58,747 bases of DNA from a virus: positions 1-58,747 of the IMG/VR virus record IMGVR_UViG_3300033148_009015; one strand, 5' to 3'. Every line of letters starts with the position of its first letter. The stretch's first letter is position 1. Under the pieces are notes generated by a model, which was given only the letters and a program-made list of their open reading frames with translations, searched no databases and was not told the DNA's origin. Both the position numbers and the translations under genes were made by a program. This document shows positions 939 to 13,976 of this stretch, in pieces.

Positions 939-1184
939 CTATGCAATGCAATCCTTGGCTCTACTCCACTTTGCCGGAGCTATACTGAGCTCTGCAACGC
1001 TGTGGCACTGCCCCGCCCCGCGTCGCGCCGCCTTGCGCTGCCCGTGCCACGCAACACCCTGCTTTGCACCGCTCCACTTTGCCTGGCCGTTGCGGTTGCA
1101 GTGCAACGAAGCGCCGCTGCAACACATTGCCAACCGACGCATCGCCCAGGCTTTACGTTGCCGTGCGCAACTACGCCATTCCAT
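939..1184 (-). CDS. Possible low-complexity small protein (81 aa)
   Basis: This open frame exactly fills the gap between the genes ending at 1188 and starting at 915, on the same strand. Its ATG (1184) follows GAGAGCATAGGCT, a weak SD. The product is Gln-, Lys-, Ala- and Trp-rich, with two copies of a seven-residue unit (AKWSGAK and AKWSRAK) and many short GCAA-type repeats in the DNA. It may be a real repetitive protein or a non-coding repeat-rich spacer. Nothing in it resembles a known family. Confidence 0.3.
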   Translation of the reverse strand: MEWRSCARQRKAWAMRRLAMCCSGASLHCNRNGQAKWSGAKQGVAWHGQRKAARRGAGQCHSVAELSIAPAKWSRAKDCIA

Positions 1185-1187
1185 AGC

Positions 1188-1904
1188 CTATGCTCTCGCT
1201 TTTCTCCGCCGAGCCTTCGGCTTGACCGCCTTCGGCGCCTTGGCCGCCGAGTCCCACCACTCGAACCGCCCGAACGAGGCGTTCCGCCATTGGCCCAGAC
1301 CACGCACCGCACCATAATTCAGCCACTCGCGGACAAAATCCCACAAGTCGGGCCGAAACACCTCTATCTCGACCGCGATTCGCGTGCCAGCTGGAGCCTG
1401 CTCAGACCGACTCAACGCAACCCGCTCGCCCTGCCGCGTCTCGCAACGTATCGGACGCTCGCACCACTCGATTACGCCCTTGGCCGGCAGCTCCAACAAA
1501 ATCCGACGAGGATAAACAAACACCAGACTGTCTATCGTCCGCCGGTACAGATACCGCGTCAGCCGTGCCGCCTTGTAACGCGACGCCTGCTCCGTGTCCG
1601 CCGCGTCCAAGGCAGTCCGGCAAACCTCCTTGAAAAACCCCTTCACCTGATAGTCCCAGATGAACGGCTGCTTTTTCGCCGTCCGAGGAAAAATCGTGCT
1701 GGCCTTGCGCAACTCATCATCCAAATCGCCCGAAACGCTGTGCTCGAGCGCGGCTTCCTCATCTGCCGCCCTGCTCAAAATGAACTCCCTGGCAACGTTC
1801 GGGTCCCCGGCCAGCGTCGCAAGCAGCGGCTCGGTAAACTCGATTCCAACACTGTATCGCTCTGGCCGCCAGCCGGCCAACCTCTCCTTCGCTTTTGTCG
1901 CCAT
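1188..1904 (-). CDS. RAMP-like phage protein of unknown function (238 aa)
   Basis: The protein has an N-terminal strand with the phrase IEFTEPLLATLAGDP, a central segment FPRTAKKQPFIWDYQVKGFF, and a C-terminal glycine-rich loop GLGQWRNASFGRFEW. The phrases ERPIRCETRQGERVALSRSE and PAGTRI resemble a family I recall in Clostridia phages and prophages, and the loop pattern recalls Cas5/Cas7-type RAMP RNA-binding proteins. The RAMP assignment is an inference. ATG 1904 has a good SD (GAAAGGAG, spaced 8). The same frame is open upstream to ATG 2042, which has a near-perfect SD, so a 46-residue N-terminal extension is possible. That extension is encoded by the structured leader at 1935-2056. Confidence 0.6.
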   Translation of the reverse strand: MATKAKERLAGWRPERYSVGIEFTEPLLATLAGDPNVAREFILSRAADEEAALEHSVSGDLDDELRKASTIFPRTAKKQPFIWDYQVKGFFKEVCRTALDAADTEQASRYKAARLTRYLYRRTIDSLVFVYPRRILLELPAKGVIEWCERPIRCETRQGERVALSRSEQAPAGTRIAVEIEVFRPDLWDFVREWLNYGAVRGLGQWRNASFGRFEWWDSAAKAPKAVKPKARRRKARA

Positions 1905-1934
1905 CGTGTCGCTCTCCTTTCTCGTCTCAATCAA

Positions 1935-2056
1935 TAATACGGGGCGCCGACGCCTGTCGCATCGAGGATTGAAGGTAACAGCATCATCAAATATCACACG
2001 CCGGCGCCCCACGTCGCTACTGTAGCTGGTTAGTCGCGGCATCACCTCCTTTCGTT
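1935..2056 (-). promoter_or_regulatory. Structured leader element, copy A (upstream of the RAMP-like gene)
   Basis: On the minus strand this reads: a perfect SD (AAAGGAGGTGAT) directly joined to ATG; a conserved 44-base block; a 46-base variable region; and a second conserved block. The segments at 1999-2010 and 1941-1952 form a 12-bp stem (GGGGCGCCGGCG with CGTCGGCGCCCC, one G-U). A small hairpin GCTA-CAG-TAGC lies at 2016-2026. The copy at 3728-3853 shares both blocks. Its small hairpin differs by one compensatory pair, and its second block is read in another frame, which points to RNA structure rather than protein conservation. The gene's own SD follows about 25 bases after the stem. Confidence 0.6.
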
Positions 2057-2233
2057 ATCTGTCCCTGCTCGACGCGCAGCATAGGCGAACGCCGCCAACG
2101 CCTTGCGCCGACTGTTGCCTTGATACACTATCTTGCGAACAAGATTCGCCGGCAACCGCGCCGGCCCAGAACGCTCGATACAACGAACCTCCACGACATA
2201 CTTTTCCCTTTTCGTCAGCGCGTCAACGTCCAT
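2042..2233 (-). CDS. Hypothetical small basic protein (63 aa)
   Basis: A short basic protein with a Lys/Arg-rich C-terminal half and no recognised family. The start ATG overlaps the stop of the upstream gene (TGATG at 2233), and the SD-like GGAGG lies 8 bases upstream. Its own stop overlaps the ATG of the structured leader's reading frame (TGATG at 2042), so its translation is probably coupled both ways. The last codons coincide with the near-perfect SD of copy A of the leader element. Confidence 0.55.
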   Translation of the reverse strand: MDVDALTKREKYVVEVRCIERSGPARLPANLVRKIVYQGNSRRKALAAFAYAARRAGTDNERR

Positions 2234-2679
2234 CAGCCAGCCTCCGCTAACGCCGCATCGAATGACGCCGCCGGACCCTCGTAAAGGATTCGACTCGGCT
2301 CCAGCTGGCATACCCGTAACGCCACAGCCTGTGGACCGCAATCCTTGCCGCCAGGAATCACGTCGTATACATACTCGGCGCAAACCTCAGCCGCCGAAAC
2401 CCCTGTCGGCATAAGATAAATCTCCTCCGGTAACCGAGAAGCAAACTCCTTCACAACGTGCGCGGCCAAAGAATCCGCACCATTGAAGACCGCTACGCCC
2501 TCCTTGGCGTAGCGGCGCATCGCGTCATCCGACGGCCAGCCGTTCACGAGCAGACAATCAGTCAAATACCGCGCTAACTCGACGCCGTGCCCGCTCGGAT
2601 AACCGTCGTAATGACGGTACATCCTCGCTATCAGGCGCGAGTCGTAATCAAATAACCGGGTTACACATCGTGTCGCCAT
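2233..2679 (-). CDS. Conserved phage protein of unknown function (148 aa)
   Basis: The N-terminus carries the phrase MYRHYDGYPSGHGVELARYL. A RHYDGYP.G.G signature recurs in phage hypothetical proteins I recall, all of unknown function. The second half has no recognisable motif. ATG 2679 follows GAAAGGAGAACGACA, the same leader as the gene at 3699. It overlaps the end of the upstream clamp-like gene by 32 bases and is joined to the downstream gene by a TGATG overlap. Confidence 0.65.
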   Translation of the reverse strand: MATRCVTRLFDYDSRLIARMYRHYDGYPSGHGVELARYLTDCLLVNGWPSDDAMRRYAKEGVAVFNGADSLAAHVVKEFASRLPEEIYLMPTGVSAAEVCAEYVYDVIPGGKDCGPQAVALRVCQLEPSRILYEGPAASFDAALAEAG

Positions 2680-3382
2680 TGTCGTTCTCCTTTCTCTGCT
2701 GTTCTGCCTGTACTTGGTCTTCCGCCGACTCGCCAGCAACGTCGCCGCCGAGACGGTCACTGTCGCTCTGGTCGCTACACTCACGCCACGCAACGTCGTA
2801 GTCCACCACGCGCGGCATCACCATCGCAAAAAAACCCGCACCACCATCAAAAACAACCGGACCTGCGCCCGGGTCGGCCTGCACTTTGACCGTCCAACGC
2901 GACACAGTCTCGCTCGCGAATAAATCAGCCAGATACGCTGGCTCGACAAATATCCCCCGACGCGCTAACGCCATCGACGCAACAGCAGCATCGCCTATCT
3001 GCGCCATCGCCGCATAGCTCGTCGGAACAATCTCGTGCCAATTCGGGAAGATGTTCGCGTCCCCCTCGTGGCATAACTCCACCACGATATAATTCGTCGT
3101 CCGCCGCGCAATCCGGTAGAATCCCTCAGGAAGCTGCAAGGCATCGCCGCGATATGCGTGCAGCCGCCTGCCGTCCGTCGCCGCTATCCATCCGTCGGCT
3201 ACACGTAACTTGTCCAGAGAATACCGCATCTTGACTTCGCCACGACGGTCCGCCGCACCAGATACCCACCAAGCCACGCGGAAGGCGCCCTCGGAGCCGC
3301 AGCGGCTGAAGGAATACTTGCTGGGCGCGGCGCTCGATGCGCCCGCGCCCGAACTCGTCGTCTGTCTATGTGTTGTACTCAT
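2648..3382 (-). CDS. Beta-sliding-clamp-like protein (244 aa)
   Basis: Several phrases match bacterial DnaN domains: IAATDGRRLHAY in the first third, LPEGFYRI, FPNWHEIVPTS in the middle (DnaN has FPDYxxVIP), AYLADLF, and near the C-terminus VVFDGGAGFFAMVMPRV (DnaN ends in ..VVMPM). The protein is about two thirds the length of DnaN (about 366 aa), so one domain is missing or reduced. A clamp-like protein could recruit host replication or repair proteins to phage DNA, or compete with the host clamp. ATG 3382 has SD GAGGAG spaced 7. The low-complexity first 30 residues are unlike DnaN. Confidence 0.6.
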   Translation of the reverse strand: MSTTHRQTTSSGAGASSAAPSKYSFSRCGSEGAFRVAWWVSGAADRRGEVKMRYSLDKLRVADGWIAATDGRRLHAYRGDALQLPEGFYRIARRTTNYIVVELCHEGDANIFPNWHEIVPTSYAAMAQIGDAAVASMALARRGIFVEPAYLADLFASETVSRWTVKVQADPGAGPVVFDGGAGFFAMVMPRVVDYDVAWRECSDQSDSDRLGGDVAGESAEDQVQAEQQRKENDNGDTMCNPVI

Positions 3383-3393
3383 CTCATTGCTCC

Positions 3394-3699
3394 TCAGTAT
3401 TCGTACCCATCGTCGTCCAACGCACTCCACTCGCTGCCCCACGTCGCAGCACGGTCCGCACACTGCGGCGCAGCAAACTTGTACCACATCTTCCCTCTCC
3501 GGTCGATGCGGCACATCGCTATCGCGCCCGGACGCACGTGGTCGCGCCCGCAAATGCACCAGGGCACACTTCGGCCCAGCGCCTCTAACACGTCGTCATC
3601 TTGCCCGTCGAGCTCGCAGTCAATCTCCGTTGCAACCTCGCGATAGTACGCCGCTGCCTGCTCCGGGTCCGTCATCGTGTAATTCGCTTTGTCCGCCAT
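3394..3699 (-). CDS. Hypothetical protein (101 aa)
   Basis: An acidic protein with one CxC pair (WCIC) and a distal Cys. No family is recognised. ATG 3699 follows GGAAAGGAGAACGACA, a strong SD with spacing 7. The gene lies immediately downstream of copy B of the structured leader element, and the 39-residue leader frame stops at 3720, 21 bases before this start. This suggests translational or structural control of this gene by the leader. Confidence 0.65.
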   Translation of the reverse strand: MADKANYTMTDPEQAAAYYREVATEIDCELDGQDDDVLEALGRSVPWCICGRDHVRPGAIAMCRIDRRGKMWYKFAAPQCADRAATWGSEWSALDDDGYEY

Positions 3700-3719
3700 T
3701 GTCGTTCTCCTTTCCTGTT

Positions 3720-3839
3720 TCATTGGATAATACGGGGCGCCGACGCCTGTCGCATCGAGGGGTTGAAGGTGGCAGCTTGGCCAGCTTCTTCTCTACGCCG
3801 GCGCCCCACGTCACTACTGTAGTTGATTAGCCGTGGCAT
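3720..3839 (-). CDS. Putative leader peptide in structured element B (39 aa)
   Basis: A small frame starting at ATG 3839 directly follows the near-perfect SD AAAGGAGGTG. The first 15 residues (MPRLINYSSDVGRRR) match the leader frame of copy A except at two positions. After that the two copies differ by an indel, so this one ends with a TGA just before the SD of the next gene, while copy A stays open into its downstream gene. It may be a regulatory leader peptide or only the visible face of an RNA element. Confidence 0.4.
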   Translation of the reverse strand: MPRLINYSSDVGRRRREEAGQAATFNPSMRQASAPRIIQ

Positions 3840-3853
3840 CACCTCCTTTCGTT
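3728..3853 (-). promoter_or_regulatory. Structured leader element, copy B
   Basis: This is the second copy of the element at 1935-2056. The 12-bp stem pairs 3796-3807 with 3734-3745, enclosing 50 bases. The small hairpin at 3813-3823 is ACTA-CAG-TAGT, where copy A has GCTA-CAG-TAGC, an A-U for G-C compensatory change. The first 44-base block has five differences from copy A, all transitions. The second block (about 30 bases) is identical but sits in another reading frame. Confidence 0.6.
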
Positions 3854-3887
3854 GCGCTACCGTTTACGTCTTCTGTGCAAATTGCGG

Positions 3888-4052
3888 TCACTGCCGCAAG
3901 CTCAGCCGCTCGCGCATCTGTATCTGGCGCCGCAGCCGCCGCCGGGCCTTCTCGTACTGGCTCTTGTACGGCTCGTCGAGCCGCTCGATGAGGTTGCGGA
4001 TTGTCACGTCCTTGGCCTTCAAGGCCGCCAATGTCGGTCTCCTATACGTCAT
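3888..4052 (-). CDS. Hypothetical small basic protein (54 aa)
   Basis: A short, strongly basic, probably helical protein (Arg-rich C-terminal half) with no recognised family. ATG 4052 has a weak GAGG signal 9 bases upstream. An alternative start at 4094 adds 14 residues. About 117 bases without an evident gene separate it from the upstream gene ending at 4170, and 34 bases separate it from structured element B. Confidence 0.45.
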   Translation of the reverse strand: MTYRRPTLAALKAKDVTIRNLIERLDEPYKSQYEKARRRLRRQIQMRERLSLRQ

Positions 4053-4169
4053 CGTCCTGTCCCTCGCATTGAGAGTGCCTGCATGGCGAGACAAGCCCGG
4101 CCGGGCGCCAACGCAGCGCCCGACCGAACCCAGGAAAGGAATGGGGAGGATGATGCTGTCTCGTGCCTG

Positions 4170-4385
4170 CTACTCATTTCGATTCGATATCTCGGCAATG
4201 GCACCGCGGCCCAAGCGGGTAGGGTATACTTCCCATGTTTGGCGGTCGTATTCTAATTCGCCGCGATTGCCGCATTCATAGCACTCATAGAGTGCGATAT
4301 TGGCTCCATTGAAGCCAATTTCAGTTTTGGCGTGGAACATCTCCGCCCCGCACTCGCATGTCACTACCAGTTCATTCAGGTCCAT
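4170..4385 (-). CDS. Zinc-ribbon-like small protein (71 aa)
   Basis: Residues 9-35 contain CECG followed by CYECG, giving a four-cysteine arrangement typical of a zinc ribbon. The remainder is acidic and unrecognised. ATG 4385 follows GACAAGGAGTCAAGCA, a strong SD with spacing about 8. The gene overlaps the upstream winged-helix gene by 10 bases. A nucleic-acid or protein-binding adaptor role is plausible but not shown. Confidence 0.65.
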   Translation of the reverse strand: MDLNELVVTCECGAEMFHAKTEIGFNGANIALYECYECGNRGELEYDRQTWEVYPTRLGRGAIAEISNRNE

Positions 4386-4762
4386 TGCTTGACTCCTTGT
4401 CTGTCTCGCGGCCACCAGCACATGGCCGGACGGCCTGTCGGCCCGACGGCCTTCACGGCCCGCTCGCACCAGGCGAATTCGCCCTTGCAGCGCCCTGTAC
4501 AGCCCGGCGCGCCGCAGTGCTGCACCAGGCCCAGCCTGCGCAGCTCCGGCAGGCGCCGGGCGACCTCGTGGTATGTGTCGTTCGGTATCGCGCCCTCGGC
4601 CGCAGCGGCTATCTCAGCGCTTGTGCGGCCGGGCCGCCTGCGCACGGCGGCCAGAACGACGCCCAGATGACTGTTGCGCACGCGCGCGGCCGCCTCGTAG
4701 CTCGTCGCGGGGTCGCTTGCGTGCGCCCTCGGCAGGCTGTCGAATAGGGTCCTCGTTCGCAT
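4376..4762 (-). CDS. Winged-helix-type phage protein (128 aa)
   Basis: Residues 17-85 follow a pattern I recall in phage DNA-binding proteins (SDPATSYEAAARV, then VLAAVRRRPGRTSAEIAAA, then RRLPELRRLGLV), that is, helix, helix, recognition helix, wing. A four-cysteine stretch follows (HCGAPGCTGRCKGEFAWC), which could bind zinc. ATG 4762 overlaps the end of the upstream gene within 2 bases and has GAGAACTGAG before it. Its likely role is a transcription or replication regulator of the early region, but the target is unknown. Confidence 0.6.
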   Translation of the reverse strand: MRTRTLFDSLPRAHASDPATSYEAAARVRNSHLGVVLAAVRRRPGRTSAEIAAAAEGAIPNDTYHEVARRLPELRRLGLVQHCGAPGCTGRCKGEFAWCERAVKAVGPTGRPAMCWWPRDRQGVKQWT

Positions 4763-4763
4763 C

Positions 4764-5018
4764 TCAGTTCTCCGGTTCGCTGTCGTCGCGGATGACCGTG
4801 ACTATGAGCTTCCGCCGGCGGTCGTACACCAGGCGGAGCTCGTCCACGCGGAAAATCGATACGCGACGCGACGGCCGCTCGATGAACTCGGCGAGCCCGG
4901 CCTGTATCGCCCGGACGAGCTCGTCATGCCGCTGAGGCGTGAGCGTCTCGCCCACCCTCTGTCGGAAGCGGCGTCTCGCGTGCCGCCTGACTCTATCGAC
5001 CTTGCGCAGTCTCGGCAT
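4764..5018 (-). CDS. Hypothetical basic protein (84 aa)
   Basis: An Arg-rich N-terminal third is followed by a segment with the pattern VSIFRVDELRLVYDRRRKLIVTVI, two strands resembling the C-terminal sheet of RelE/ParE-like or related small folds. No active-site set is visible, so no toxin function is assigned. ATG 5018 has SD GGAG spaced 7. It overlaps the upstream nuclease gene by 26 bases. Confidence 0.5.
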   Translation of the reverse strand: MPRLRKVDRVRRHARRRFRQRVGETLTPQRHDELVRAIQAGLAEFIERPSRRVSIFRVDELRLVYDRRRKLIVTVIRDDSEPEN

Positions 5019-5757
5019 TCGGCGTCTCCTTCGGCGCCCGTTGCGCCGCAATCGTCCTAATGAAAAGGTGGTTCTCGAACAGGGCGGCCGCCTTGTAAGG
5101 CTCCAGGCATGTCTCCGAGCCATGCAGTAGGTGCACCTCGCGGCAGCGCCGCAGGTCGCAGCGGTCGCGCACATATCGCAGCGCGACGGACTGCTCCATG
5201 TGGCTCGTCAGCATGCGGCGCGCCACAAGCTCCGGCACATACCCGCCTTCGACCATTTCGTTCAGCAGCTTCGCGTCGTAGCTGCACTCGACGGCGATGA
5301 TGTCGAATGCGGTTGCGAACCGCTCGCTGATGTGCGAGGTGTCCGTGGCGAACAGCAGCGACTCGTCGGCCTCGCGGTCGTGCACAATGAAACCCAGCGC
5401 CCCGTCTACGTCGTGGTGCACGGCGAACGGAAACACGCCGAATGCCGGCGACAGCGTGAACCATTGCCGCGGCCGCAGAATCGAGGCGCCCCGGCGGCCC
5501 AGCAGGCCGCGCAGTCCGAGCGTCTCTTTGCTGGCCCAGACCGGGACGCCGGCGCGCAGGACATCGGCCGCAGCGCGGCTGTGGTCGTTGTGGGCATGGC
5601 TCAGGCAGCACGCCCGCACGCCGGAGAGGTCGAACCGGACGGCCTGCTGAATCCGGCGCCATGGCACGCCTGCCTCGAGCCAAAGCTGCTCACCGGACAG
5701 GCTCGTCACAACGTAGAAGTTGCCGGCGCTCGAGCTGTAGTGCGCGTCGAATCTCAT
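4993..5757 (-). CDS. Metallo-beta-lactamase-fold nuclease, YycJ/WalJ-like (254 aa)
   Basis: Residues 53-59 carry the metal-binding HxHxDH motif (SHAHNDH), and a later ATDTSH supplies the bridging Asp. The N-terminal strand resembles the start of YycJ-type single-strand DNA exonucleases (SSSAGNFYVV). Its ATG overlaps the stop of the RecT gene (ATGA at 5757-5754). Pairing with RecT and a Rad50-like ATPase suggests it supplies the exonuclease of a phage recombination system in place of RecE or lambda Exo. The C-terminal 20 residues are low-complexity and overlap the next gene. Confidence 0.75.
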   Translation of the reverse strand: MRFDAHYSSSAGNFYVVTSLSGEQLWLEAGVPWRRIQQAVRFDLSGVRACCLSHAHNDHSRAAADVLRAGVPVWASKETLGLRGLLGRRGASILRPRQWFTLSPAFGVFPFAVHHDVDGALGFIVHDREADESLLFATDTSHISERFATAFDIIAVECSYDAKLLNEMVEGGYVPELVARRMLTSHMEQSVALRYVRDRCDLRRCREVHLLHGSETCLEPYKAAALFENHLFIRTIAAQRAPKETPNAETAQGR

Positions 5758-6773
5758 TGCGCCGCCTCGTACACTTGCAGGCTGCCGCACTCCGGGCAGG
5801 TACGAACATCATTCTTCGGGCCGGTCATCTTCGGCTCGGCGAATCGCGCGTCGCACTTGCCGCAGATATACGGCTCCGTCGCGGCCGCTTCCTCGGACGG
5901 CTCTCCGGTCGTGGGCGCAGCGCCCTGCTCGTCTTCCGTCGTTTTGGCCTCGACCTTCTTCCGCCGGCGCCGCTTCGGGCTCGGCTGCTCGGCTTCCGCA
6001 GGGAACGGGTCCACCGCCTCGGCCCCGGACTCTTCGTTCACGGCGGTAACGGCCTCCTGGGCGGCGTCCGCGAGGTCGGCCTGCTCGTCCATCGCGGCAG
6101 CCCTGCTCAGGTCGGACATCACGCTCTTGGGCAGGAACTTCGCCAGCTGCCGGATGGCCGTCTTCATGGCCATCTGCGGGTAGAAGTTCGTCCATGCCGG
6201 GCTGTTCGGGGCCTTGCTGAGCCTGCGGAACCGCTCTATCTCGTCGGCGCGGAGTACGACGGTCTGCGGCCCCAGCCCTTCGATTTCGGCCGTCGCATAG
6301 GCGGCGATGATTTTGCCTTTCGGCGGCTCGAAGCTGAACGGATGCTGCACGACATACCGCCCGTTCACCCGCCGGATAGTCACCTTGTCGCGCTCGCTCT
6401 CGTAGATGCAGTTCGCCGTGATGGACTTGACCTTCTCCGAGCGGTAGGCCAGCTCCATCAGGCCTAGGTAGCCGATTTGGAACTGCGCCTCCATCGTACC
6501 CTTGTTCTTGTACGGCACCAGGTACGCCAGTCCGCGCGCATCTATCTCCAGGTCGAGGCTGGCCGCCTGGCTCGCCGCCCGTATCAGGCTCGCGACGCTG
6601 CACTGTTGCAGCGCCGCATTCTGGCTGATATAGCCGTAGAGCATCTTGACATACCGCCGGGCCAGGTCCTTGCCGCGCGAGCCCATCGCGCTCGGCAGGT
6701 AGTCAACGAACAGCTGCACCGCCCTGTCGCTCAGCAGCTCCTTCTTGATTGTCGTCAATGCCGTCTTCGCCAT
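5754..6773 (-). CDS. recT: RecT-family single-strand annealing protein with C-terminal zinc ribbon (339 aa)
   Basis: Residues about 25-220 match the RecT core (ASLIRAASQAASLDLEID, YLVPYKNKG, QFQIGYLGLMELAYRS, and near the end of the core PQMAMKTAIRQLAKFLP). It anneals single-stranded DNA during recombination-dependent replication and repair. After an acidic/basic linker the C-terminus adds a CGKC...CPECG zinc ribbon, not part of the canonical family. ATG 6773 has SD CAGGAGG spaced 7. The gene starts 71 bases inside the upstream Rad50-like gene, an unusually long overlap, but the SD and the conserved N-terminus support it. Confidence 0.9.
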   Translation of the reverse strand: MAKTALTTIKKELLSDRAVQLFVDYLPSAMGSRGKDLARRYVKMLYGYISQNAALQQCSVASLIRAASQAASLDLEIDARGLAYLVPYKNKGTMEAQFQIGYLGLMELAYRSEKVKSITANCIYESERDKVTIRRVNGRYVVQHPFSFEPPKGKIIAAYATAEIEGLGPQTVVLRADEIERFRRLSKAPNSPAWTNFYPQMAMKTAIRQLAKFLPKSVMSDLSRAAAMDEQADLADAAQEAVTAVNEESGAEAVDPFPAEAEQPSPKRRRRKKVEAKTTEDEQGAAPTTGEPSEEAAATEPYICGKCDARFAEPKMTGPKNDVRTCPECGSLQVYEAAQ

Positions 6774-8688
6774 TGCGCACCTCCTGTCTGATGGTTAGTG
6801 TTTTCAGTCCCGCGACTGCGCGCAAGCCTATCACCTGCGAATCGGTGCGCGGCCGCGCAGTCAGGCTCTCGTAGTGGTCGATGAACAGTGGCGCCCGTCG
6901 CCCGTAGTGCGCGGCGAGCGTATTGATGATGTCGATTCCGGCGACAATCTGCTGGCCGTGCGACAGGTCCGGGTACGGCACGCCGTCGAGCATCGCCTCG
7001 CACGTCGGCTCGATGCCGCCGTTGAGCAGGCGGTTGAACAGCCGGAACGTTACGCGGTCGAACTTCGCGTTCACGGCCCGCTCGACGCGCTGCGCCTCGG
7101 CCTGGCGAAGCCGCCCGAGCTCGGCCAGCAGTCCGTCCACTTCGGTCACCTGCCGCGCGAGCTCCCGTTCGCGGGCCTCGAGCTCGCCTATGCGCCGCCG
7201 GTCGCGCTCGGCTCTGTCCCTCTGCGCGAGGGCCCGGTTCAGCTCGTCCAGCTCCGCCCTTGCCCGGCCGAGGCAATCCTCGATTTGCCGCAGCTGCTCG
7301 GTCACGGGCGCGCCGAGCTCCCTCTCGCGCACCTCGATGGCGCGGGTCAAGTCCTGCCAGCTCGCGTCCTTCGACGGGTCCGGCGTCGGCCGGGCGCGGA
7401 TGGCCTGTTCTATCTCGGCCAGCCGGACGGCGGCGGCCTTGCCGAGCACGTCCGCCTCGCGGGCTGCGGCGGCGGCTCGCTCCCGCGCGGTGCGCAAGTC
7501 CTTGTTGCCGGCGTCGACCTCGGCCTGGAGCCGCTCGACCTCGGCGCGGCACCGCTCGGCCTGCTCGACGGCCTGGACCTTCTCGGCCTGGGCCTTCTCG
7601 GTCTGGGCCTTCAGACGGCTGGCCGGCCACTTGCGTCCGCAGGTCGGGCATCTCTCACTGGCCGGCTCGTCCAACTCCTTTACCCGGCACCTGGCGTCGT
7701 CCAGGGCGCGCCGGGCCTCTGCCAGGGCGTATCTGCGTTCGTTGAGCACCGCCTCCATTTCCAGCGCGGCCCTGTCGGCCTCGGCATGCTCGGCCTTCTT
7801 CTGCGCCAGCTGCTCGTGCAGCCGCGCCTGCTCGTCCAGGAGCTCCTGGCAGGCGCCCATGTCGGCGCGCAGCTCGCTCTCGCGCTGCGTCCGCCGTGCC
7901 CGCAGGTCGTTGAGCTCGTCGATTCGTGCCTGCCGCTGCTGCTCCTGTTCAAGGAGCGCCCTCCGGCGCTGCTCAAGCTCGGCCATCGTCTTACGAACGG
8001 CCTCGCGGCCCTTCTCGGCCTGCGGTTCGTCCATGGGCTCGGCAGGCAGGCCGCGCAGCAGCTCGTCGATTCGCGGGTTGATTTCTCTTCGCTCGTCGTC
8101 CAGGCGCTTGCGCTCGGCGCGGAGCATCCTCTCGTAGTCGTCGGCGGACCTGCCAGCCATCTTCACCAGCAGCGCATCGAAGCCGGGCGGCGGCCCGACC
8201 GCCCCGGCCAGCTCCAGCAGCACCTTGCGCCGGTCCGTCCAGTGCAGCGCGCAGAACGCGCGGACATCGCTGAGTAGCCGGAAGGTGTCCCCGCCGAGAA
8301 GCCCGGCGACGAACCGGTCGTATTCGCCCTTTCTGCGCGGCACGTCGTCCACCCAGCAGAGGGTCTCATAGCCGCGCAGCTGGCCCTTGACGGTTCGCTC
8401 GCGCTGCTCCTTGCGGAGCGTCACCGGCGGGCCGTCGTCCGGTTCGATGTTGGCCTCGACGCGCACCACGGCGCCCTTGACCGGCTCGCCGCTTGTGTCC
8501 AACGGCCGGACGTGGAAATCCGCCCGGCCGCCGCTGTTGCGGTCGAACAGCAGCCACAGCCACCCGTCGTAGACGCTGGTCTTGCCGATGCCGTTGGCCG
8601 CCTCGATGACGGCATTGCGCCCATCCAGCTCGAGCGCGAAAGACTTGATGCCCTTGAAGTTCTCCAGGGCGATTCGCTTGATTTTCAT
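6703..8688 (-). CDS. Rad50/SbcC-like AAA ATPase with zinc hook (661 aa)
   Basis: The N-terminal ATPase half has Walker A AANGIGKTS (residues 30-38). Long coiled coil (about 180-530) is interrupted by a CPTC zinc hook at 347-350. The C-terminal half holds the ABC signature SHGQQI (576-581) and Walker B LFIDHYESL (601-609). Rad50/SbcC ATPases organise DNA ends with a nuclease partner. Here the partner is probably the MBL nuclease two genes downstream rather than SbcD, since no SbcD gene is visible. It is shorter than SbcC (about 1050 aa), with a compact coil. ATG 8688 follows GAAAGGAGCCTGCA. The last 23 codons overlap recT. Confidence 0.8.
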   Translation of the reverse strand: MKIKRIALENFKGIKSFALELDGRNAVIEAANGIGKTSVYDGWLWLLFDRNSGGRADFHVRPLDTSGEPVKGAVVRVEANIEPDDGPPVTLRKEQRERTVKGQLRGYETLCWVDDVPRRKGEYDRFVAGLLGGDTFRLLSDVRAFCALHWTDRRKVLLELAGAVGPPPGFDALLVKMAGRSADDYERMLRAERKRLDDERREINPRIDELLRGLPAEPMDEPQAEKGREAVRKTMAELEQRRRALLEQEQQRQARIDELNDLRARRTQRESELRADMGACQELLDEQARLHEQLAQKKAEHAEADRAALEMEAVLNERRYALAEARRALDDARCRVKELDEPASERCPTCGRKWPASRLKAQTEKAQAEKVQAVEQAERCRAEVERLQAEVDAGNKDLRTARERAAAAAREADVLGKAAAVRLAEIEQAIRARPTPDPSKDASWQDLTRAIEVRERELGAPVTEQLRQIEDCLGRARAELDELNRALAQRDRAERDRRRIGELEARERELARQVTEVDGLLAELGRLRQAEAQRVERAVNAKFDRVTFRLFNRLLNGGIEPTCEAMLDGVPYPDLSHGQQIVAGIDIINTLAAHYGRRAPLFIDHYESLTARPRTDSQVIGLRAVAGLKTLTIRQEVRNGEDGIDDNQEGAAERQGGAAVR

Positions 8689-10053: not shown

Positions 10054-11262
10054 TCAATATCTGATGACCTCGCCGAACGGCGGTGGCCCGGCACACGAGT
10101 CCCTGTTCACGACCCAGAGCACCGGATAGTCCGGGGGCCGCTCAGGGAACCGCCCATGCAGGTCGGTCAGGTATATCAGGCAGGCCGGCTCGAGTCCGTG
10201 CTCATCCACATGGTCGAACACCGGGCGGAAGTCCGTGCCCCCGCCGCCTATCGGCTCGAGCCGCAACGGCAGGTCCGCCCGCGTGAGCTCCTCGACCTTG
10301 CGGACGGCCGTGTCGCAGTGCAGCACGGTGGCCGTCGTATCGAACGAGCCGAGAATGTCACTTATCGCCCCGGCGAACTCCTGCATCTGTCGGTCGCTGA
10401 TGCTGCCGGACGTATCGTTGGCCACGACGACCTGCGGCAGCTCGTCGCTCACCAAACTCGGTAGGACCACGCCGCGACCGAACCACTTGCGGTTCGGCCG
10501 CATCCAGTCATAGTCATTCCGGGCCGTCCGCGTGACGAAGTCCCGCAGCAACGTCTGCCACGGGACCGGCGGGCTCACGAGCTCGTCAACCAGCCGCTTC
10601 AGTCCGCCGGGCAGCGAGCCGCGGCTCATCCGCGCCGCCTGGACGACCGCCGCCTTCCATTCGGCTTCGGCCTGCTCGGCGTCGCCGGTGCAGTCCATCA
10701 CGCCGCCACAGCCGCCGGGGTCCGACGGACTGGGCTTGTCCGCGCCGCCGCCCCCGCCCTTGTCCCCGTCGGTCGGCTGTTCGCCCGAATCGCCCTGGCC
10801 CGCGCCGCCTTCGCCGAGTCCGTCTGCGCCGGACTCATCGCCCTGCTGCCGCAGCACGTCGTAGATTTCCTCGGCGCCGAGGCCCTTGAACCGGTCGTCC
10901 ACCAGGTGGTTCGCCGGCAGCCGGAATCCAGCCTCCAGGAGAATCGGGTTAATCGCGTAGTCCGTCGCGACGTTCCACAGCTCGGGGTCGCGGTCACCGC
11001 GCCGGAACTGGTGGCCGTTCGCCGCGTGCAGCACCTCATGGGCCAGCACGCCGACGCGCTCGTCGTGCGTGAGCCGCTCGACGAACTCCGGGCTGAACAC
11101 GAGCCGCTCGCCGTCGGTGGCCATCGTCTCGATACCGGCGCCTTGGGCCTGCTCCAGCTTGAGCCGTAGCGCCAGGGCGCCCCAGAAGGGCGCCGCGTCC
11201 AGTATGAGCGACCTGCGGGCCCGCACCAACAGGTCGCGTGCGTTCCTCGTAGTGATGCTCAT
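10054..11262 (-). CDS. VWA-domain metallopeptidase-like protein, DUF2201 type (402 aa)
   Basis: Residues 75-79 (HEVLH, followed by AANGH) form a zinc-peptidase HExxH motif. A Gly/Gln/Asp-rich linker (about 155-205) follows, then a VWA-like domain with a MIDAS-type DTSGSIS motif and a TDLHG phrase near the C-terminus. Proteins of this architecture usually sit beside a MoxR-type AAA ATPase, as here (gene at 11277-12263, 14 bases upstream). Such pairs are thought to remodel or mature metal-containing complexes. The target in this phage is unknown. ATG 11262 follows GAAAGGAGCACACG. Confidence 0.75.
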   Translation of the reverse strand: MSITTRNARDLLVRARRSLILDAAPFWGALALRLKLEQAQGAGIETMATDGERLVFSPEFVERLTHDERVGVLAHEVLHAANGHQFRRGDRDPELWNVATDYAINPILLEAGFRLPANHLVDDRFKGLGAEEIYDVLRQQGDESGADGLGEGGAGQGDSGEQPTDGDKGGGGGADKPSPSDPGGCGGVMDCTGDAEQAEAEWKAAVVQAARMSRGSLPGGLKRLVDELVSPPVPWQTLLRDFVTRTARNDYDWMRPNRKWFGRGVVLPSLVSDELPQVVVANDTSGSISDRQMQEFAGAISDILGSFDTTATVLHCDTAVRKVEELTRADLPLRLEPIGGGGTDFRPVFDHVDEHGLEPACLIYLTDLHGRFPERPPDYPVLWVVNRDSCAGPPPFGEVIRY

Positions 11263-13676: not shown

Positions 13677-13976
13677 TTACTTCTTGTGCTTCCTGATCCG
13701 AATCTGGCCCAGATCGCGGGCCACACATTCCAGGCCCGGCGCGTCGCCCAATTCTTCATAGGCCCGCGCCAAGGCCTGGCGCGCAGCGACAAGACCTTGG
13801 CGCACACGAACCGAGCGCGGCTCAGCCTTGTCGCCGAGCTCCGCCAACCAGTCGCGGAGCCAGCGGCTGTCGTGCGGCATCCGCGCCTGGTATAGGGAGC
13901 CGGGCCGACGGGCTATCAGCCGCCAACACCCGTCAGCCTGCTCCCAATATAATTTTTCGGCATTCGACATTGCCAT
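13677..13976 (-). CDS. Hypothetical protein, first gene of the leftward operon (99 aa)
   Basis: A helical protein rich in Arg, Ala and Trp with a Lys/His tail. No family is recognised. It is the first gene after the leftward promoter (14007-14035). Two starts are possible: ATG 13976 lies too close to the SD (AAAGGAG, 1-2 bases), while ATG 13970 is spaced 8 and is the more likely start, giving 97 residues. First genes of phage early operons often encode host-takeover proteins, but nothing here shows that. Confidence 0.6.
   Translation of the reverse strand: MAMSNAEKLYWEQADGCWRLIARRPGSLYQARMPHDSRWLRDWLAELGDKAEPRSVRVRQGLVAARQALARAYEELGDAPGLECVARDLGQIRIRKHKK

Follow-up and report, generated by a model that had tools for sequence, protein, structure and literature searches.

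In the virus record IMGVR_UViG_3300033148_009015 of IMG/VR (58,747 bases, 64% G+C), which is taken over its entire length and called the window below, two unrelated genes are each preceded by a copy of the same cassette. It consists of a Shine-Dalgarno sequence (SD1), a short reading frame, a GC-rich stem-loop of 12 bp, and a second Shine-Dalgarno motif (SD2) followed by the start codon of the downstream gene. Since portal, tape-measure and RecT-family genes are present, the window derives from a tailed phage, and both copies lie on its minus strand within a leftward gene row. The duplication of the element is confirmed; the proposal that it founds a new family of structured RNAs is not proven. 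Tentatively, and with confidence short of an even chance, we read the pair as a duplicated translation-leader cassette in an early operon of this phage.

An earlier note had placed the two elements at 1935-2056 and 3728-3853 and had described a 44-base block that differs by transitions only, a variable middle of 21-24 bases, an identical block of about 30 bases, and a different gene after each copy. This description holds, with the addition that both copies are read on the minus strand (2056→1935 and 3853→3728). From the ATG onward, the first 45 bases contain five differences, all of them transitions; block 1 in its full extent is identical at 54 of 59 positions, again with five differences, all transitions. 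The middle (21 or 24 bases) is replaced between the copies, 9 of 19 aligned positions being alike and 10 different, and is followed by an exact match of 34 bases inside a stretch with 42 of 45 positions alike. The proteins encoded downstream, of 238 and 101 aa, cannot be aligned to one another. A 31-base piece of block 2 is present twice in the window, where 100 shuffles give an expectation of 0.00; therefore, the repeat itself is not due to chance. The contrast between the near-identical flanks and the differing middle (Fisher P = 1.5e-5) suggests selection or gene conversion acting on the flanks. The copies can be aligned over their whole length, and the repeat extends 3' through the downstream Shine-Dalgarno motif to the start of each gene (repeat family D2, 61 bases, 89%). 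Thus, the repeated unit is the entire stretch of ~150 bp between one ribosome-binding site and the start of the next gene, rather than an isolated RNA element (Table 1). The gaps that the two copies fill measure 137 and 188 nt, whereas no other gap in the gene row from 1188 to 8688 exceeds 75 nt, as counted from our own gene calls.

Table 1. Positions of the two cassette copies, their parts and the genes that follow them.
Feature	Position	Strand	Basis
Copy 1, leader cassette from SD1 to downstream start codon	1905..2056	-	same DNA in IMG/VR contig G001
Copy 2, leader cassette	3700..3853	-	not in contig G001
SD1 of copy 1, AAAGGAGGTGAT	2041..2052	-	exact match
SD1 of copy 2, AAAGGAGGTGAT	3838..3849	-	exact match
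Copy 1 stretch homologous to the short frame, ATG start, frame lost by 1 nt before block 2	1927..2042	-	TGA 1929-1927 in the frame of copy 2
Short open reading frame of copy 2, 39 aa + stop	3720..3839	-	list of open reading frames, translation
Stem of copy 1, 5' arm GGGGCGCCGGCG	1999..2010	-	exact pairing with 1952-1941
Stem of copy 1, 3' arm CGTCGGCGCCCC	1941..1952	-	exact pairing with 2010-1999
Stem of copy 2, 5' arm	3796..3807	-	exact pairing with 3745-3734
Stem of copy 2, 3' arm	3734..3745	-	exact pairing with 3807-3796
Start-associated motif AAAGGAGAGCGACA (SD2) of 238-aa gene	1907..1920	-	motif scan
Start-associated motif AAAGGAGAACGACA (SD2) of 101-aa gene	3700..3713	-	motif scan
Gene that follows copy 1 (238 aa), no family match	1188..1904	-	family searches
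Gene that follows copy 2 (101 aa), no family match	3394..3699	-	family searches

The 12 bases of SD1, which we take to be the complement of the usual 3' end of 16S rRNA, occur exactly twice in the window. Through this fit, ribosomes would be captured at SD1. In copy 1, they would come from the 63-aa upstream gene (2042-2233), whose TGA overlaps the ATG (TGATG); in copy 2, the upstream gene ends earlier, with its stop at 3888. The ribosomes would then pass along the stem-loop, with or without translating it, and initiation would be handed to the downstream gene at SD2. The stem may set the ratio, in that it masks or spaces out what lies between the two ribosome-binding sites. The short frame of copy 2, with 39 codons from the ATG, closes with a TGA; from there to the next start are 20 nt, which would suit re-initiation. 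The limits of the repeat, exactly SD1 on one side and the downstream start on the other, fit a unit acting in already transcribed mRNA. The overlap of stop and start after a strong Shine-Dalgarno sequence in copy 1 resembles translational coupling at TGATG (topic of the review PMC12548453). However, copy 2 lacks the overlap, and the unit here contains a stem and recurs as a cassette.

As the earlier note had proposed, a 12-bp stem joins the two blocks; its pairing is exact in both copies and includes one G-U pair. The arms are separated by 46 nt in one copy and 50 nt in the other, a difference of 4 nt that a stem-loop could tolerate. The significance of the stem is less clear than that of the repeat. 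Taken alone, the stem-loops are unusually stable and beat 1000 of 1000 and 996 of 1000 dinucleotide shuffles, in segments trimmed to the stem, a choice that favours low energy relative to shuffles. Minus-strand segments of the same length, however, folded equally well in 60 of 2348 and 56 of 2347 cases (~2%). Perfect stems of 12 bp, with no more than one G-U pair and a loop of 25-75 nt, number six on the minus strand, including the two described here, and 5, 9, 5 and 8 in four simulated sequences. In the predicted fold, the main stem of 12-13 bp persists in both copies when flanking sequence is included, and the SD2 core of copy 1 is then largely unpaired.

Several observations weigh against the translation-leader reading. 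The earlier note had described a perfect Shine-Dalgarno sequence joined to an ATG, and AAAGGAGGTGATG is indeed found in both copies, but the start is atypical for the phage and poor: only 2 nt separate the ATG from the core, as read from AAAGGAGGTGATG (the spacing calculation had measured both elements to a GTG one codon earlier), against mostly 6-9 nt in the other listed genes with such a core, the list also holding three starts whose core was distant or missing. In copy 1, no stop codon intervenes ahead of the downstream start, and the frame of this copy continues into the downstream gene as a fused frame of 285 aa; re-initiation as drawn above fits copy 2 only. In copy 2, the SD2 core is partly paired in longer context. 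The whole element of 131-133 nt is not unusually stable (z of -1.66 and -1.17), and for the duplex of block 1 with block 2, equally good pairing arose in 273 and 184 out of 2000 shuffles. The consensus fold of the element is a predicted three-way junction, whose basal helix is lost once 15 to 90 flanking bases are added; the junction was dropped for this reason. With two copies only, covariation is not possible: none of the 13 pairs in the main stem varies, and there is thus no evidence of covariation either way. In the single pair changed on both sides (columns 24-45), the observed covariation was reached by 265 of 500 shuffles. The compensatory change from G-C to A-U that the earlier note had seen in a small hairpin is therefore no proof of structure, because the same C/U base pairs with either of two G/A bases in mutually exclusive pairings; the consensus fold pairs it with the upstream one and not in that hairpin. 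Of the proposed structured leader RNA, the leader position, the duplication and the strong stem are supported, but its conservation as RNA is not, given the invariant stem and the lack of a diverged homolog. A more specific form of the translation-leader reading is quite improbable in our estimate: a ribosome-handover module of the phage, made up of a 12-base 16S-complementary trap too near the ATG for efficient initiation, the stem and a second start signal, which would serve as a portable cassette linking new genes to operon translation.

The closest known arrangement is the two-tier layout of cluster K mycobacteriophages (PMC3203893; also PMC12699233, both in their accessible parts, as are the other statements on this system). 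There, a short start-associated motif, SAS, precedes several non-structural genes, and in about half of the cases it carries an upstream inverted-repeat extension, which makes it an ESAS (PMC3203893). The discoverers saw little evidence that hairpins form in the mRNA and preferred a role in DNA binding (PMC3203893); a later paper placed SigA-like promoters inside ESAS and still called the role of both elements unclear (PMC11373665). The window has a comparable layout. The motif AAAGGAGARCGACA occurs exactly before three genes (1907-1920, 2680-2693 and 3700-3713, minus strand); a fourth neighbouring early gene has it at two mismatches (4032-4045, minus strand), and two of these four starts carry the cassette as an extension, just upstream of the motif as in ESAS. 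With the remaining matches, at 13971 and 28712, the motif totals six matches in the window, a number reached by none of 100 shuffles. However, the SAS consensus GGGATAGGAGCCC has no match in the window at up to two mismatches. The cassette arms are 12 bp long and lie 46 or 50 nt apart, whereas those of ESAS are 15-17 bp long, imperfect and 4-14 apart; SigA-like -35/-10 boxes with 17-18 bp between them were not found in the cassette, which, unlike SAS/ESAS, has an extra Shine-Dalgarno sequence and reading frame. Because of these differences in sequence, arm length, spacer and promoter, the cassette, although organised like SAS/ESAS, would not be a member of that group and may work like it at most.

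This likeness (PMC3203893, PMC11373665) also lends some weight to an alternative that we hold possible but unlikely, i.e., a promoter or operator with inverted repeats that acts at the DNA level and was duplicated before two genes, as was later proposed for the cluster K ESAS. Block 2, identical in both copies, ends in TATTAT, which has five of the six letters of a -10 box. Yet a sigma-70 scan found no site in either element, its one match in 1000-5000 lying elsewhere with 1.1 expected; the nearest -35-like sequence, GCGACA, would leave a spacer of 15 bp. Furthermore, the spacing of the arms differs by 4 bp between the copies, and the start of the repeat exactly at a Shine-Dalgarno sequence would be left unexplained.

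Another explanation, which we consider improbable but not far-fetched, is a duplicated small gene for a peptide of ~39 aa (MPRL..YSSDVGRRR...TFNPSMRQASAPRII), with the first copy frameshifted and the stem a by-product of GC-rich coding DNA. The earlier note had argued that a one-base indel puts the second block in different frames, so that its identity could not come from a protein. The indel is real, but the argument, its main one for a structured RNA, is wrong. When block 2 of copy 1 is read in the frame of copy 2, its translation is SMRQASAPRIID, compared with SMRQASAPRIIQ in copy 2, and both end at a stop in one aligned column; these shared residues and TGA mean that a single frameshift in copy 1 would suffice. 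The indel in the middle is 3 nt long and keeps the frame, with TFNP retained. The five changes in the first 45 bases comprise three at third positions, all synonymous, and two at second positions; with AAT/AAC and ATT/ATC added, 5 of 7 are third-position changes (P = 0.045 against one third), the two extra sites having been chosen after being seen. On the other hand, the spacing between SD1 and the ATG is too short, the middle 7-8 residues are unrelated between the copies, and tblastn of the peptide gave no match up to E = 10 among 50,697 phage or 72,556 plasmid records, a search that is insensitive for short queries.

Viral and genome scans found the element in at least one other contig, G001, which has a single match, at copy 1 (1983 bases around it at 99.95%), and is without copy 2. 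In G001, tandem duplications occur at 766-845 (40 nt), 1050-1149 (roughly 30 nt) and about 3093-3130 (23 nt); lying at breaks in the match to the window, they may be assembly joins. Outside the common parts, tblastx of G001 against the window gave mostly short noisy pieces. A recombination linker, or a plain recent duplication devoid of regulatory role, in which the cassette would be a common boundary sequence between exchangeable phage gene modules, is doubtful: the region has no other relatives in the viral scans, but the contrast between flanks and middle reported above speaks against it and the G001 junction with the 23-nt duplication may be an assembly join.

A covariance model built from the two copies, the check that the earlier note had proposed, recovered its training copies, copy 1 of G001 and weak matches of at most 11.3 bits; beyond the training copies, only the near-identical G001 sequence was found, and no diverged homolog. 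The note had held that a lack of covarying homologs would refute a structured RNA; the scans returned none, and this only because there was no diverged homolog on which covariation could be judged. Among the matches from scans based on CTACAGTAG, one, in contig L012, shares 19 bases with block 1, but scored 11.3 bits (E = 1.3) and is probably due to chance, since two like matches, in L013 and L014, both fall in coding frames and were taken as chance. L012 is an unrelated AT-rich viral contig, in which CTACAGTAGTGACGTGGGG (2945-2970, minus strand) is immediately followed by a perfect 6-bp hairpin, GTGGGG-TA-CCCCAC, in an intergenic position, the match being ~40 nt before an ATG. The RecT relatives L007 and L008 contain no copy of the element, and nucleotide searches of phages and plasmids with blast returned nothing but short matches attributable to chance (E of at least 2).

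The element is undescribed as far as Rfam 15 goes, with no match at the gathering score on either strand of the 58,747 bases; a sparse, word-based look-up of the literature did not establish its absence from print. RF01867, the CC2171 Caulobacter small RNA, is the sole Rfam family with any match near either copy. Its model opens with the same extended Shine-Dalgarno sequence (CGAAAGGAGGUGAU) and closes with a GC-rich hairpin, but the spacings of the parts differ, and the scores of 21.0 and 15.8 bits compare with a gathering score of 75.

The 238-aa protein encoded downstream of copy 1 has no Pfam, PHROG or NCBIfam match (it was partly searched as the fused frame) and no convincing relative of solved structure, the best E being 0.13. 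Its C-terminal GLGQWRNASFGRFEW resembles what we take to be the glycine-rich loop of RAMP proteins. Elsewhere in the window, a metallo-beta-lactamase-fold protein (4993-5790, minus strand) adjoins the RecT gene, and a DUF2201 metallopeptidase plus VWA-like protein (10054-11262, minus strand) belongs to the same leftward gene row. The capsid protein matched 14 phage records, the best being Brevundimonas phages at 35%; in this comparison of the capsid protein alone, no mycobacteriophage was among the 10 matches listed or in the organism tally.

In cluster K mycobacteriophages, start-associated repeats that are portable and carry inverted-repeat extensions are already known (PMC11373665, accessible part). 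If the translation-leader reading is true, an unrelated phage would have the same two-tier layout with a second ribosome-binding site at its far end, which may make translation, and not DNA binding, the common theme. This idea would be easy to test with reporters.
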